The position numbers were made by a program, and so were the translations under genes. DNA of 64,000 nucleotides from Panorpa germanica (taxonomy: Eukaryota; Arthropoda; Insecta; Mecoptera; Panorpidae). A model generated the notes under the pieces. It did no database searches and had not been told where the DNA came from. It was given only the letters and a program-made list of their open reading frames with translations. Below are positions 2,666-42,862 of this stretch, in pieces. Numbering within the stretch: position 1 is the first letter of the stretch; the number at the start of each line of letters is the position of its first letter. The stretch covers positions 8,618,001-8,682,000 of the forward strand of contig OY783212.1 in the NCBI GenBank assembly GCA_963678705.1. Direction: 5' to 3'.

Positions 2666-3956
2666 TTGAATGGTTCGCCGTATAAATATAATATCGCCGG
2701 CATTTCCAAACTTTCATGATCTTCCAAACCGATCGGAAATTGCACTAAGTAGTAGTGTCTCGCTTAAATTCTCTCCTTTTTTTATCGATAAGATTTTAAT
2801 ATGACGGTAATGTCGATTTTTGGATAGAATGTCATCGGCAATAGGACTTAACATCGGATATAAACAAACATTACACAAATTTAAAAAGAGTTTGGTTAGA
2901 AAAAGTACTGACAAAAATCTTTTACAAACAATTGTTTAAAATGAATTCTTCTTTAATTAAAGGAAGTTTCTGCGAGTATAAATGCCACCTGTAATTCTCG
3001 TGTTATTTATAGTCGTAGTTAATTTTCCCTTCGGTCTACTTCCTGGAACGCTAGTCATGTTTTTCATTACGGAAATGTCGTGAGTCTATTGTAGTTATAT
3101 ATATTTGATTATGGATAGATGTCTCTGGTTGGTCTCCGCTTGTCTCTGGTTTTGCTGTTGATTCTGTCAGTTCATTTCATATAATTGTAATTGTCCTAGC
3201 GTTCTGCCCGTCCCGTTTATTACCACACTAACTCGTTACAATGGTACATCGAAAGCAGTGGCGTTGGCACGTATATCGTCCCGGGTATAATCAGGCTTGA
3301 CATATGCTTTATAAACTTGACGAACTGTACAGTAAATAATAATTAAGTCGGTTGCATAAAAAGAAGATTCAGTAATTTTCTTTGAATAAATGTATTTAGA
3401 AGCATTCACTATTCTGAAAATTTATATATGATATAGATTTACAATTTGGAAAAAAACTCTTATGAAGTAGAAACTAGAAGCTTTTGTGGTGCTAAGAAAA
3501 AAATTCTCGCTGAACACATACGTTTTATTACTTAACGCAACATAATTTTGTTAAAATATCATGAAATAATAATTTAATATGTATTATTGTATAATCTTAG
3601 CAAAAACTTCTATGAACGTCATAGCTAACATAAATTTATGTAAAAGATAAAATGTTTATGTAAAAGGTAAACTTTGTTAAATGTAAATGATATATGTAAA
3701 TGTGTAAATATTATTAACGGGACGTTATAAGCGCTTTATATTTAATCACATCTAATGTAAATAAGAATACCTTTTCTTTTTTTATTTTCGTTCCGAAATG
3801 TATTCACTGTAGTATTTTCAAAATTGAGCGGCTCTGTAAAAGCAGTCTCTCTCTGGAGACACAACAAATAACAATTTTCAAAATATCAACACGTGAAGTA
3901 AATAAAAAATTCTTTAACGACATTATACTGCACGTTTTTTACAGTATTCGATTTTA
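2666..3956. other. AT-rich non-coding DNA with short TATGTAAA-type repeats
   Basis: No gene is visible. Between about 3630 and 3710 the sequence drifts through imperfect tandem copies of a (T)TTATGTAAAAG/GTAAA motif. The rest is featureless. Confidence 0.55.
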
Positions 3957-36844: not shown

Positions 36845-36857
36845 TAAATAAATAAGA
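36845..36857 (+). repeat. Target-site duplication, 5' copy
   Basis: TAAATAAATAAGA, identical to 42611-42623 on the far side of the LINE. The last three bases (AGA) match beyond the simple TAAA pattern, which supports a real duplication. Confidence 0.75.
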
Positions 36858-37062
36858 CACAGTTTACATCGAGTCTTCTTGGTGAGCGCACGTATTTACA
36901 ATAAACAAAACAATAAAATAAATAGTTATCTTTTTTTTTGCAAATTATAATATTTTTTTTTCGTGATTTATTTTTTTTTAAATTATAATTTATATTATTA
37001 TTAAGTGTTATTAATTAGAAGTGAAGTAACTTCTATTTAATTATCACTGGTTAATTAACAAT
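36858..37062 (+). promoter_or_regulatory. LINE 5' UTR with likely internal promoter
   Basis: These are the first 205 bp of the element. I- and jockey-type LINEs carry an internal RNA polymerase II promoter starting at or near base 1, with an initiator (CA at +1) and downstream elements in the first 30-40 bp. Here the start is CACAGTTT, followed by a relatively GC-rich stretch GGTGAGCGCACG, after which the sequence turns extremely AT-rich with T-runs. The promoter role is inferred from the family. Confidence 0.55.
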
Positions 37063-38490
37063 ATGGATATGGAGGTTGAACCTCCCGATAAAAATCCGAT
37101 CAATAAAAACAACTCTGTGACTAACAAATCAATTCCTACAGATAAAACATCCAGTGATATAACAGAAAACTTAAATAACAATAGTGACAATGTTAAAAAA
37201 ATATTTAATAATTTATACAACACAGAAACAAAATATGACTCGTATAAAGTAATGATAGTTAAAAATAATAGTGATGGAAATACATTTTTTAGTTCTCTTA
37301 AATTAGCAGAAATAATATGTAAAATTAGCAATAAATCTAATATAATAGAAATTAAAAAAGTGGGAAGAAATAGAGTAATCGTTCAATGTGCTAATGCAGT
37401 ACTAGCTAACGAAATTACCAAATCAACATTGCTGAAAAACAATGGGTATGAAGCGTTTATCCCATTTTACTGGTGCACAAAAGTTGCTATTATAAAAGGT
37501 GTTGATATTGAATATTCGGAAGATACAATTTTAAATAATATAGAGTGTCCACCTTTTAAAGTAACGAGAGTGCAAAGGTTAAATCGAAAACTAAGAGTTG
37601 ACGGAGCTATTAAATATGAACCCAGTACAACAGTGAAATTATTCTTTGAAGGACTTGCTATTCCTGCTTATGTTTACATGTGGAGAGTGAGACGAGCATG
37701 TGAACCATTTGTACAACAGACGATACAATGTTATAATTGTTTTAAATTTGGACATGCAGCCACAAAATGTAGAGCAAAAGTAGCAAAATGTAAATTCTGC
37801 GGAAGTGAAGATCATTTACGTACTGCATGCACATCTCCTAATCCGACATGCATAAATTGTAAACTTAACCACGAGGCTACAGACAATGAATGTCCTGAAA
37901 AAAAAAGACAAATCAAGATAAAAGATCTCATGGCCCAACACAATCTCAGTTTTTATGAAGCAAAATTAGAATTAACAGAAAAAAATACAGACTATTTATA
38001 CTCAGTAAGAACTCAAAACTCTTTTGAAGCTCTAAACTACAATGAGACTTTTCCCAATATCACTAATAAATACAATAGTATCAACATAATTCCAACATAC
38101 AAACCAAACCCTTTAACCAGAAGAACTAATACCAGAGTGAATAAATCAAATACAGGTAACTCGTTACAAAGATCTTACAGTCAACCACAACCTACGACAT
38201 CCACTAAAGAACCAATTCCAAAAAGAAGAAGAGAAGAAAAGAAACCTAACAATGAAGAAAGCGACACATACCTTAAGATAACTAATCAAGGAAAAAACAG
38301 AAAGCAAATCAACCAAGAGACACCTGATATTACAATGGAAAACAATGATAATGATACCTGCTATACATCAATATATAATAAAAATAATGATGACAAAATT
38401 AAAAATACAAACAAAGACCCAAATATTACATCCCAATCCCTTAGAAGCTACAAGAAACAAATATCTAGTGTACAATGGTTAAACTCGTAA
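37063..38490 (+). CDS. LINE ORF1 protein, nucleic-acid binding, three zinc knuckles
   Basis: The 475-residue protein coats the element's RNA and helps form the ribonucleoprotein that returns to the nucleus. Three zinc knuckles lie in a row. The first is C223-X2-C-X4-H-X4-C236 (CYNCFKFGHAATKC), the second is C243-X2-C-X4-H-X4-C256, and the third is C263-X2-C-X3-H-X6-C277. This set is typical of I/jockey-type ORF1. Residues about 60-210 form a region with RRM-like character and a W-rich end (YMWRVRRACEP). The N-terminus is Asn/Lys-rich, and the last 130 residues are polar and probably disordered. The ATG at 37063 is the first in frame after the T-rich leader. The frame is intact to TAA. Its length suits the family. 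Confidence 0.93.
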   Translation: MDMEVEPPDKNPINKNNSVTNKSIPTDKTSSDITENLNNNSDNVKKIFNNLYNTETKYDSYKVMIVKNNSDGNTFFSSLKLAEIICKISNKSNIIEIKKVGRNRVIVQCANAVLANEITKSTLLKNNGYEAFIPFYWCTKVAIIKGVDIEYSEDTILNNIECPPFKVTRVQRLNRKLRVDGAIKYEPSTTVKLFFEGLAIPAYVYMWRVRRACEPFVQQTIQCYNCFKFGHAATKCRAKVAKCKFCGSEDHLRTACTSPNPTCINCKLNHEATDNECPEKKRQIKIKDLMAQHNLSFYEAKLELTEKNTDYLYSVRTQNSFEALNYNETFPNITNKYNSINIIPTYKPNPLTRRTNTRVNKSNTGNSLQRSYSQPQPTTSTKEPIPKRRREEKKPNNEESDTYLKITNQGKNRKQINQETPDITMENNDNDTCYTSIYNKNNDDKIKNTNKDPNITSQSLRSYKKQISSVQWLNS

Positions 38491-38696
38491 GAAAACATCG
38501 ATATATAAATTAAGTTTATTTTTAAAAAAATCTATTCACATCACTAAACCTAATCGTTTAATAAATTTACTAAAATATTAAATCAACAATAATTATATAA
38601 ACTGAGAGAAAATAAAATAAAATAAAATATATAAATAAATCTAACAACAAGACCAAGGACAGATATAAAAATCAATAATTAATTAAAACAGTTAAA
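38491..38696 (+). other. ORF1-ORF2 spacer of the LINE
   Basis: A 206-bp A-rich gap with stops in all frames. Spacers of this kind are known in I elements, where ORF2 is thought to be translated by reinitiation or internal entry. No fusion or overlap is possible here. Confidence 0.7.
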
Positions 38697-40139
38697 ATGA
38701 TAAATTTTATTCAATGGAATTGCAGAGGAGTCAGATATATTAAAGAGGAACTACAACATATGTTACAGAAGCATAACATACATATATGCATACTATCAGA
38801 AACGTTTTTAACAAAAAATATCAATTTCAACATCAAAGGTTATTTTATTGAAAGAGAAGATAGGATACAGAATACAAACTATAATCCCCACGGGGGTGTT
38901 GCTATCTTGATTCATAAATCTATAAAATATAAACGAGTAATGCTAAATAACCCATTTAATTCGGTCGAAATAGTTGGAATAATTTTAACACATAACGAAA
39001 CTGATGTAATATGTATTTTATCAATCTATGCTAAACCGAATCATAAACTATCTAATTCTAATTGGTCACAGATAAAACAACAAATAGATGTTCCTGTTAT
39101 ACTTGCTGGAGATTTTAACGCGACTAATCTTGCTTGGGATATAAATTGTCCAGGTAGTCAGTATGAAGGTAACGAATTGTTAGATTTCATAGAAAACGAA
39201 AATCTAAATATTATCAACGATAATAAACCAACTAGAGTAAGCAATCTCAGTACAAGGGACAGTATATTGGATCTCACATTGGTATCAATGACGTTAACAC
39301 AACAAATTACTTCGTGGCAAGTTCTTGCAGATAGCTTAGGTAGTGATCACTACCCAATTTTTTTCTGTTTGAATGACTATAATAAAGACCGTTACCGTAC
39401 ATCTGAATATTTAACGAGGAGAAATTTCCGAAAAGCAGATTGGGAGAAATATAGCCTTGAAATAGAAAGCAGAATTTCAAACCTTAGCACAAATGGAATC
39501 ACAAGTAATCCCCAAGATGTTGAAAACAAATACAACCAATTTAGAGATGTTATTAATAATTCGGCAGACATACATATCCCATCTACCAGATTGTATAATA
39601 TAACTCCTAATAAAATAAAACCGTCTTGGTGGGACACTGAGTGCAATAAAATGATAGCTCAAAGAAAATTAGCACTAACTATTTTTAATAAAAACATGAC
39701 AATGGCGAATTATTTAAATTATAAAAAACATCAAGCTAAAACCAGACGATATTTTAGAGCCAGAAAAAAAATAGAATGGCAAAATTTCTGCGAGAATTTA
39801 AACCCAAATACAACAACCAACATTGTCTGGAATAATATAAGAAAAATTAACAATAAAAGCTATAGTACTAAAAGGATAAGTGATAATGAAAATTTAATAG
39901 AAGAATTCATTAAAAAAAAATTTCCACAGAACAACAATTTAAATATTACTACCACCACCATCGTAAAAGATAATTTTCTAGATAATAACATAAATAAAAA
40001 TGAAGTAAAATTCGCGTTAAATCATAATAAAAACAGTAGCACAGGATTTGATAGAATAAATTACAAAATGATACAAAACTTACCTGACAATGCAATAAAT
40101 CATCTTACACAAATACAATCTGTCATTAAACACTGCTGA
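38697..40139 (+). CDS. LINE ORF2, N-terminal part: apurinic-type endonuclease
   Basis: These 480 residues open ORF2. The endonuclease nicks the target DNA so that reverse transcription can be primed there. The exonuclease-endonuclease-phosphatase fold is clear. N8 lies in QWNCRG, E35 in ILSET, D139 and N141 in LAGDFNA, and S216-D217-H218 in the final SDH motif, so all key catalytic residues are kept. From about residue 225 to 440 comes the linker, with a conserved WWDTEC segment near 312. The RT domain then begins (SSTGFDRINYKMIQNLPD). The frame ends at a TGA caused by a frameshift around 40107-40116; the conserved continuation is in the next entry. Originally this was one polypeptide. Confidence 0.93.
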   Translation: MINFIQWNCRGVRYIKEELQHMLQKHNIHICILSETFLTKNINFNIKGYFIEREDRIQNTNYNPHGGVAILIHKSIKYKRVMLNNPFNSVEIVGIILTHNETDVICILSIYAKPNHKLSNSNWSQIKQQIDVPVILAGDFNATNLAWDINCPGSQYEGNELLDFIENENLNIINDNKPTRVSNLSTRDSILDLTLVSMTLTQQITSWQVLADSLGSDHYPIFFCLNDYNKDRYRTSEYLTRRNFRKADWEKYSLEIESRISNLSTNGITSNPQDVENKYNQFRDVINNSADIHIPSTRLYNITPNKIKPSWWDTECNKMIAQRKLALTIFNKNMTMANYLNYKKHQAKTRRYFRARKKIEWQNFCENLNPNTTTNIVWNNIRKINNKSYSTKRISDNENLIEEFIKKKFPQNNNLNITTTTIVKDNFLDNNINKNEVKFALNHNKNSSTGFDRINYKMIQNLPDNAINHLTQIQSVIKHC

Positions 40140-42423
40140 TATACCATTAGACTGGAAAAAACATATCGTTGTTCCTATATTAAAAACAGGAAAAGATCCA
40201 AACAAAGAAGAATCATTCAGACCAATTACTTTACTATCATGTATGGGCAAAACTATGGAATCCATCATCAAAAACAGACTGGAGTGGTATCTCGAACATC
40301 ATAAAAGATTACCTGAGTTACAATTTGCGTTTAGAAAAACAAGAAGTACACAGCATAACTTAAACATATTGAATATCGATATTCAAAGAACATACAGTAA
40401 AAATCATTATATGATAGCTGCTTTCATTGACATTGAAGCTGCTTATGACAATGTTAATCTAAAAATATTAAAAGAAAAAGTAGAAAACATAGGTATATCT
40501 TCCAAAATATCCAACTGGATTATAAACTACTTCCAAAATAGAGAAATAACAGTTAGATACAATAATAAGTTAACTGGTCCTATACTATGTAATCACGGAA
40601 TTCCACAAGGCTCAATATTATCTCCCTTATTATTCAACATATACACAGAAAAGTTAACAACATTATCAGATAACAACACAACAGTACTGATGTATGCAGA
40701 TGACATGGTTATTTATAGTATGGGTCATACACAAGATATAGCTCAAAACAGATTACAATCGAAATTAAGAAAACTAGATATTTTATTAAAGGAAATCAAA
40801 TTAAATATATCGTCAGAAAAAAGTAAAATAGTTATATTTACAAGGCATAGAATAAACTGCAGTCCAAAAATAACCATCAGAAATAAAAATATAACTGTTA
40901 CTTCAAATACCAAATTTCTGGGTATATTCTTTGATACGAAAAGCACTTGGGCGAAAGAAATTGCACATATTATTAACAAATGTCAAAAAGGCTTAAATTT
41001 GATGCGATGTATAGCAGGATACAAATGGGGCGCACACCCAACAACCTTAATAAAAATATATAAAGCTATTGTTAGACCGCATATTGACTATTCTAGTACT
41101 ATGATCTGTACCGCAAATAACTCAAGATTAAAAAAAATTGAAATTATACAAAACAAATGTTTAAGAATAATATTAGGTGCAATGGTTTCAACACCAATCC
41201 AAATCCTCAACTATCAAACTAATATTCCTCCGGTAAATATCAGAATACAACAAATATCAGACAGTTTCTTTTGTAAAAACAGACATAACTCATGTGGCCC
41301 CTTAAATACAAGATTATCTAAACTATATGTTCTTTATAATAAACCATATTGGACAACTCATAAAAAACCGGCACTTTTAACTAGTTTTGATAGATATAAT
41401 AACTTGAACTTAGAGGTACACAACATTATACCTTTTTTCAAATTTCCATTAGAAATAAGCATGACAACAATACATACAGAAATAAATTTGTTCAAGAAGA
41501 ATGACAGTAAGGAAATAACTTATCAAAAATATATGGAATATATAACAAAAGATGATATAAACTGGAGTATATGGTTTACCGATGGTTCATTCGAAAAAAA
41601 CTCTAAAACTGGAGGAATTGGCATTTTCAATTATAATACAGATCAACAGTACAAATACAAACTTAACAACATCACAAATTCTTATAATACAGAAATAACA
41701 GCAATTATGAAATTACTAGAAATAATACAAAAAACTGACAATAAAAATATATTAATCTTCACAGATTCTCGTAGTGTTTGTGTATCTTTAAATAACAATA
41801 AATTCAAAAACAATAATAATAACAAAATATGTTCAATTAAAGAATATCTTTTAAAAATGGAAAAAAATGATATCAATGTTAAACTTATTTGGATTCCTGG
41901 ACATGTAGGCATAAAAGGAAACGAAATGGCTGACAAACTGGCCAAAGAAGCTTGTGTAGATGGGGAAATAATCGAAATAAATTGGTCAATAAATGATTCC
42001 AAAAAAATAATTAAAGAAAATTGTATGGCAGAATGGCAGAATATATATAATGAGAAAAGTCAAAGTACTGGAAAATTTTTTTTTGCAGCGAATCAAAAAA
42101 TTCCAACAACCACATGGTTTAATAAAAATCATTCACGGAGATATATTTCAACAAATTGTCGAATGAAATCTGGGCATTCTAGATGTCCAGCTCATCTATA
42201 CAAAATAAATATAAAAGACACACCAAATTGTAGATGTGGAGAAGAAGGGTCTTTGGACCATATAATTCTAGGGTGTCATCTTTTAACATCAAAAATTGAT
42301 AGACTTTTAAATGATTTATGTAATGTAACACAGTTCCCAGTCAATATGTCCTGTTTAATGACAAGTGAAGCAACGGCGGAAATATTAACAAACTTTGTGA
42401 TAGAAAATAATATAGAAGTGTAA
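40114..42423 (+). CDS. LINE ORF2, C-terminal part: reverse transcriptase, RNase H, CCHC
   Basis: This is the rest of ORF2, in a shifted frame. The first ATG is 40243, but homology begins at about 40114 (YNLSLNTADIPLDWKKHIVV). Positions below count from that ATG. RT motifs present are FIDIEAAYD (D63), GIPQGSILSPLLF (119-131), YADD (151-154) and LGIFFD (226-231). RNase H follows with D447 (WFTDGS), E484, D508 (IFTDSR) and D564 in the GHVGIKGNEMADKLAKEA block, so the catalytic set is complete. A C-terminal zinc motif is CRCGEEGSLDHIILGC (663-678). The RT copies the element RNA at the nicked target, and RNase H removes the RNA. The long frame is uninterrupted to TAA. Confidence 0.93.
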   Translation, partial: YNLSLNTADIPLDWKKHIVVPILKTGKDPNKEESFRPITLLSCMGKTMESIIKNRLEWYLEHHKRLPELQFAFRKTRSTQHNLNILNIDIQRTYSKNHYMIAAFIDIEAAYDNVNLKILKEKVENIGISSKISNWIINYFQNREITVRYNNKLTGPILCNHGIPQGSILSPLLFNIYTEKLTTLSDNNTTVLMYADDMVIYSMGHTQDIAQNRLQSKLRKLDILLKEIKLNISSEKSKIVIFTRHRINCSPKITIRNKNITVTSNTKFLGIFFDTKSTWAKEIAHIINKCQKGLNLMRCIAGYKWGAHPTTLIKIYKAIVRPHIDYSSTMICTANNSRLKKIEIIQNKCLRIILGAMVSTPIQILNYQTNIPPVNIRIQQISDSFFCKNRHNSCGPLNTRLSKLYVLYNKPYWTTHKKPALLTSFDRYNNLNLEVHNIIPFFKFPLEISMTTIHTEINLFKKNDSKEITYQKYMEYITKDDINWSIWFTDGSFEKNSKTGGIGIFNYNTDQQYKYKLNNITNSYNTEITAIMKLLEIIQKTDNKNILIFTDSRSVCVSLNNNKFKNNNNNKICSIKEYLLKMEKNDINVKLIWIPGHVGIKGNEMADKLAKEACVDGEIIEINWSINDSKKIIKENCMAEWQNIYNEKSQSTGKFFFAANQKIPTTTWFNKNHSRRYISTNCRMKSGHSRCPAHLYKINIKDTPNCRCGEEGSLDHIILGCHLLTSKIDRLLNDLCNVTQFPVNMSCLMTSEATAEILTNFVIENNIEV

Positions 42424-42610
42424 TTTAAGTTAAAATATTTTATTTAGTATGTATTTAATTTTAAGTTTAATTTTTTAAAAGAATCATTTTGTTTTGTATT
42501 TATTAGAACAATTATAATTTATATGTAAATTTTTATATAATTTTACAAATAAAAGCAATGGCAAGAAGGCTGAATAAGCCAAAGCCTAAATAAAAAAAAA
42601 AAAAAATAAA
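42424..42610 (+). other. LINE 3' UTR, hairpin and A-rich tail
   Basis: The stretch has AATAAA-type signals at about 42548 (CAAATAAAAG). Near the end, GGCTGAATAAGCC (42569-42580) can fold into a GGCT/AGCC hairpin and is followed by a second AAGCC. LINE enzymes often recognise such a 3' structure on their RNA. The tail is a 13-15 A run followed by TAAA units. The junction with the target cannot be fixed to the base, because the duplicated target is also made of TAAA units. Confidence 0.7.
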
Positions 42611-42623
42611 TAAATAAATAAGA
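42611..42623 (+). repeat. Target-site duplication, 3' copy
   Basis: TAAATAAATAAGA, identical to 36845-36857. After it the sequence returns to ordinary flanking DNA (GAAACATC). Confidence 0.75.
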
Positions 42624-42722: not shown

Positions 42723-42862
42723 CCTATGTCTACACATGCGTGTTCGTGCTATTTGACGATTGTAAGATTGTAAAACGTTCGTGTTCGTGTATATGAATCT
42801 CTGCACTGTAAACACGAACTATATCTGAACATTCGTACCCGAACACGCATGTGTGGTTTAGG
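42723..42862. mobile_element. Small foldback MITE, about 140 bp
   Basis: The inverted ends share CCTA and, after a few variable bases, a perfect 15-bp block ACACATGCGTGTTCG (42732-42746, inverse at 42840-42854). The interior also holds GTTCGTGTTCGTGTAT and its partial inverse AAACACGAAC. No target duplication is clear. Autonomous relatives are unknown to me. Confidence 0.6.

Follow-up and report, generated by a model that had tools for sequence, protein, structure and literature searches.

A young family of I-superfamily LINEs in the genome of the scorpionfly Panorpa germanica

Chromosome 9 of Panorpa germanica carries, within a 64,000-nt stretch that was analysed as a whole (positions 8618001-8682000, hereafter the window), a full-length LINE of 5.7 kb ending in a poly(A) tail. 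Is this copy a recent insertion, and does it belong to a family that has lately been active in the lineage? The original prediction held both to be likely. The assembly examined here has 464,208,970 bases in 249 contigs, and the genome paper describes 464.2 Mb in 254 scaffolds, with 20 autosomes and the X (PMC11464959). Mecoptera (scorpionflies) are close to flies and fleas, and a literature search on their LINEs turned up no study devoted to any one LINE family of the order.

Anatomy and classification of the element

The coordinates of the element and of its parts are given in table 1. The first two zinc knuckles of ORF1 have the pattern CX2CX4HX4C (37729-37770 and 37789-37830) and the third CX2CX3HX6C (37849-37893), bearing out the three knuckles proposed originally; they fall under the Pfam cut-off (zf-CCHC, E 0.34), and single-sequence structure prediction of ORF1 gave a mean pLDDT of 31.5. 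ORF2 has the endonuclease motifs WN.RG (38715), LSET (38793), GDFN (39108), LDL (39267) and SDH (39342), the reverse transcriptase (RT) motif YADD (40693), the RNase H motifs FTDGS (41575), TEITA (41689), FTDS (41758) and GNEMAD (41917), and a C-terminal CX1CX7HX4C (42229-42276). All the residues named beforehand, namely the endonuclease N/E/D/SDH, YADD, the RNase H D-E-D-D and the C-terminal CCHC, are therefore in their places. Sequence matches in the PDB were to R2 and to HIV RNase H; the search with the endonuclease half returned 0 matches.

Table 1. Features of the LINE insertion and its borders (window coordinates)
Feature	Position	Strand	Basis
5' copy of 13-nt target-site duplication	36845..36857	+	exact repeat of 42611-42623
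Whole LINE insertion (5' UTR, ORF1, spacer, ORF2, 3' UTR, tail)	36858..42610	+	ends match 17 other full-length copies
Possible internal promoter: CAGTTT start, GCACGT at +28 to +33	36860..36893	+	motif match; weak
ORF1, 475 aa, three CCHC knuckles at 37729-37893	37063..38490	+	ORF list, motif search
Block separating young subfamilies A and B	38127..38677	+	26 of 32 fixed differences
Spacer between ORF1 and ORF2	38491..38696	+	ORF coordinates
ORF2 first part, APE-type endonuclease, up to frame break	38697..40139	+	Exo_endo_phos_2 2.4e-20
2-base deletion breaking ORF2 frame (approximate place)	40112..40112	+	alignment of 18 copies; genome pattern search
ORF2 second part from first ATG: RT, RNase H, C-terminal CCHC	40243..42423	+	RVT_1 9.5e-34, RNase_H 7.1e-22
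Predicted 3'-terminal hairpin, two stacked stems	42560..42586	+	fold prediction; exact in sister family L038/L039
TAAATAAA + poly(A) tail with one extra TAAA	42587..42610	+	same tail type in 17 other copies
3' copy of 13-nt target-site duplication	42611..42623	+	exact repeat of 36845-36857

The deletion near 40112 is the only frame lesion of the window copy, in agreement with the single lesion noted earlier. The accompanying claim that both ORFs are kept holds for ORF1, which is open, and for the domains of ORF2, which are all present, but not for the protein, as this copy is unable to make the full ORF2 itself. The deletion is private to the window among the 18 aligned copies, and a genome-wide search with an exact 37-base pattern spanning it matched a single place, the one in the window. 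The deletion thus dates from the insertion event or later, and no descendant retaining the exact 37-mer has received it from this copy.

An RT without LTRs, a 3' tail and target duplications of variable length identify the element as a non-LTR retrotransposon (LINE). The APE-type endonuclease, RT and RNase H of ORF2 and the CCHC knuckles of ORF1 agree with the proposed membership of the I superfamily, an assignment by domain architecture rather than by RT tree. The family is not filed in the I clade proper because its 3' end does not consist of TAA repeats, the full-length copies ending in TAAATAAA units and poly(A). Nor does it use a single fixed target of the R1/R2 type, such as rDNA, since 18 different AT-rich duplications were found in the 18 full-length copies, window included.

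The Drosophila I element has two ORFs, with CCHC knuckles in ORF1 and endonuclease, RT and RNase H in ORF2, and the window LINE is like it in this layout and in inserting with variable target duplications. Nimb/Nimbus elements also have the same broad layout. The Drosophila element is set apart from the window LINE by its 3' end, which is described as TAA repeats (PMC3747384), whereas the window LINE ends in TAAA units and poly(A), the comparison being one of descriptions only. Nimb/Nimbus elements are listed in the I superfamily, beside Ingi (PMC11203168).

Terminal signals and the insertion site

The element begins at or near CAGTTT, and the downstream GCACGT fits the DPE consensus DSWYVY. 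Because 2.9% of the 6-mers in the window fit this consensus, the promoter is a weak lead, and transcription from an internal promoter is possible on the strength of the motif. At the other end, the predicted hairpin folds at -9.0 kcal/mol for 39 nt, with a z score of -1.39 against shuffles (-2.09 with more flank and -0.58 for 146 nt), modestly better than the shuffled sequences. The last 30 bases are identical between the window family and a diverged sister family (L038 and L039). This match was found by searching with 27 of those 30 bases, and the informative point is its survival in so diverged a family, not its length. Since the hairpin is kept there, it suggests a candidate signal for the RT, of the kind used in 'stringent' template recognition. 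LINEs of the stringent type, such as zebrafish ZfL2, eel UnaL2 and silkworm SART1, are described as having a 3'-terminal stem-loop, and SART1, which likewise ends in poly(A), as requiring its 3' UTR (PMC3747384, PMC4176376). The window LINE has a predicted stem-loop in common with these three; they belong to other clades (L2, R1), and recognition of the 3' end by the ORF2 of the window family would be an extension from them. No SINE with this tail was present among ten exact chromosome 1 tails that could be paired with no 5' end and no RNase H site.

The same 13-mer, TAAATAAATAAGA, stands at both junctions of the window LINE, as had been reported. Repeats of 11-18 nt occur at the same two junctions in all 17 other full-length copies; 15 of these are not simple repeats, and the remaining two are a TA run and an A run. 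The duplications are 11-15 nt long, apart from one of 18 nt in an A run. On this evidence the window 13-mer is a real target duplication. One additional TAAA unit sits between the poly(A) tract and the duplication on the 3' side, which leaves it uncertain where exactly within the TAAA run the element ends. In the genome the 5' flank occurs once, whereas the 3' flank matches itself in full and 37 other places in part, so no paralogous empty site was available to a search with both flanks.

A perfect inverted repeat of 15 nt, with 93 nt between its arms, lies just 3' of the LINE (42732-42854). The 37 partial matches of the 3' flank around it are 68-97% identical and lie elsewhere in the genome, which makes an old, dispersed repeat of MITE-like or fold-back type its probable identity. 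Neither an Rfam scan nor a tRNA scan of the window gave any hit. Elsewhere in the assembly, the mitochondrial contig (C249, 16,386 bases) carries COX1 and has the tRNA order Ile-Gln-Met. Nuclear pieces matching COX1, with mitochondrial-code TGA codons, were seen on C1, C3, C5, C16, C21 and others, including one pair of equal score on C5, about 100 kb apart. These are probably nuclear copies of mitochondrial DNA.

Copies, subfamilies and age of the family

Pattern searches of the genome counted 459 5' ends, 567 RNase H sites and 997 3' ends, allowing up to three, three and two mismatches, respectively; controls with reversed patterns gave 0. The 40 matches scored among 650 candidates in a search with the 5' piece, and the 40 scored among 711 with the 3' piece, were all at 100% (rounded). 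From the 39 other places found with the 5' piece, the 20 best-matching regions were selected by similarity to ORF1. Seventeen are full length and 99.37-99.77% identical to the window copy, and both ORFs are open in 14 of them (ORF1 of 475 codons, ORF2 of 1241-1242), ORF2 being broken in L018, L030 and L032. The other three of the 20, L022, L027 and L031, are near-identical too but break off abruptly before the 3' end (at element positions 3464, 4483 and 3342, respectively), unlike the usual 5' truncation, and L022 is additionally without the first 133 bases; these were left out of the alignments.

On chromosome 1, the exact-match lists contain 36 5' ends, 45 RNase H sites and 53 tails. A 5' end lies 5209-5715 bases away from 33 of the 53 tails, ten have an RNase H site only and ten have neither; 3 of the 36 5' ends have no exact tail within 6.5 kb. 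Approximately 62% of the exact tails thus belong to copies having a 5' end, a high share for a LINE. Ten of the 33 pairs were picked by eye, spread along the chromosome and not at random. They are 98.69-99.83% identical to the window copy (substitutions only), and both ORFs are open in seven, the broken ones being L052 and L055 (ORF2) and L058 (ORF1). Old copies are under-sampled in both sets, since one was drawn from exact end matches and the other as the best 20 by ORF1 similarity.

These copies uphold the view that the family was recently active, which had called for many relatives above about 98% identity and for an unshifted ORF2 in some of them. With hundreds of near-identical relatives, many with undamaged ORFs, the family has spread in recent times and may still be active. 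The open-frame copies are not necessarily all active: of 14 motif strings taken from the window (three in ORF1, 11 in ORF2), all are letter-identical in 24 of 28 aligned copies, and L050, L051, L052 and L054 each lack one or two, in L051 including the string that holds YADD.

The 28 aligned copies (the window, the 17 best matches and the ten picked by position) fall into two groups. Group A has 25 copies, with a mean pairwise substitution of 0.304% (maximum 0.646%), and group B has three, with a mean of 0.642%; between A and B the value is 1.24%. Most of the fixed differences are concentrated in a block of about 550 bp, a tenth of the element, in which diversity within A and within B is not proportionally raised. 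As the groups differ mainly in this one replaced block, recombination is suggested, and the simplest reading is that the block passed into one group from another lineage, through recombination or template switching; with only three B copies, this reading is provisional. The dN/dS of shared variants is 0.18 in ORF1 and 0.16 in ORF2, and that of singletons 0.42 and 0.50; low values for shared variants are as expected if the source copies were under purifying selection at the protein level.

Private substitutions per site amount to 0.051% for the 17 best matches, rising to 0.070% for the window copy and 0.095% for the seven A copies picked by position. At 2.9e-9 per site per generation, the rate given for Heliconius melpomene (PMC8742016), these correspond to about 0.18, 0.24 and 0.33 million generations, respectively, and at 1.0e-9 (Anopheles coluzzii) to about 0.5 to 0.95 million generations, both being rates of other insects. 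Older relatives came to light among the ten exact chromosome 1 tails that stand apart from any 5' end or RNase H site. Six are older copies (92-97%), two are short truncations (253 and 75 bases), and two belong to the sister family, which over its last 860 bases has 26 to 43 matches per 50 bases, roughly 52-86%, where fully aligned. Old copies therefore exist, and the youth of the family withstands them, as not all other copies are old.

Origin of the insertion and its meaning

Near-identity among so many copies could also reflect a founder that arrived recently by horizontal transfer, and the very low divergence is what such an arrival would leave. We consider this very improbable: the six tails at 92-97% and the sister family, in the same genome, imply a longer residence, and one scan of viral contigs found no relative. 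Taken together, the older subfamilies and the sister family point to a lineage long established here that has burst recently, rather than to one newly arrived. Even less credible is that the copies owe their likeness not to recent insertion but to gene conversion or a collapsed assembly. Exchange between copies does seem to occur, given the single block by which A and B mainly differ; nevertheless, flanks and duplication are individual to each of the full-length copies checked, the copies carry private substitutions, the window copy is flanked by single-copy DNA on its 5' side, and the assembly is reported as HiFi with a QV of 59.9 (PMC11464959). The extra TAAA unit on the 3' side would suit a third possibility, that a TAAA repeat already stood at the site and supplied both 13-mers, the element having come there by another process. 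We give it next to no weight, because duplications of like length that are not simple repeats sit at these junctions in 15 of the 17 other copies; the duplication proposed at the outset has in this way outlasted the objection raised beside it.

Almost certainly, then, the window LINE inserted recently and at full length, as a member of an autonomous I-type family that spread within the P. germanica lineage by target-primed reverse transcription. The ORF2 endonuclease would nick AT-rich DNA and the RT would copy the polyadenylated element RNA from the 3' hairpin and tail, with ORF1 binding the RNA and RNase H removing it; resolution would leave the target duplications of 11-15 nt (one of 18 nt in an A run). 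On this reading the family has long been resident and burst recently from a few source lineages, with purifying selection acting on their proteins. The window copy moved either as an intact element or with the help of one, and the two bases of ORF2 were lost while it inserted or afterwards, which leaves it dead in cis for ORF2.

This kind of element is well known, and the window family is a newly found young family within it, of interest as a resource rather than a surprise. Its many full-length copies with open ORFs could serve as polymorphic markers and as an I-type test case outside Drosophila. More tentatively, and with the balance somewhat against it, the family could be mobile now in wild P. 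germanica, with many insertions segregating and new mosaic subfamilies arising by recombination near the ORF1-ORF2 junction. If so, a stringent 3' hairpin and the high share of full-length copies would turn it into a mecopteran equivalent of the Drosophila I factor that lends itself to experiment.
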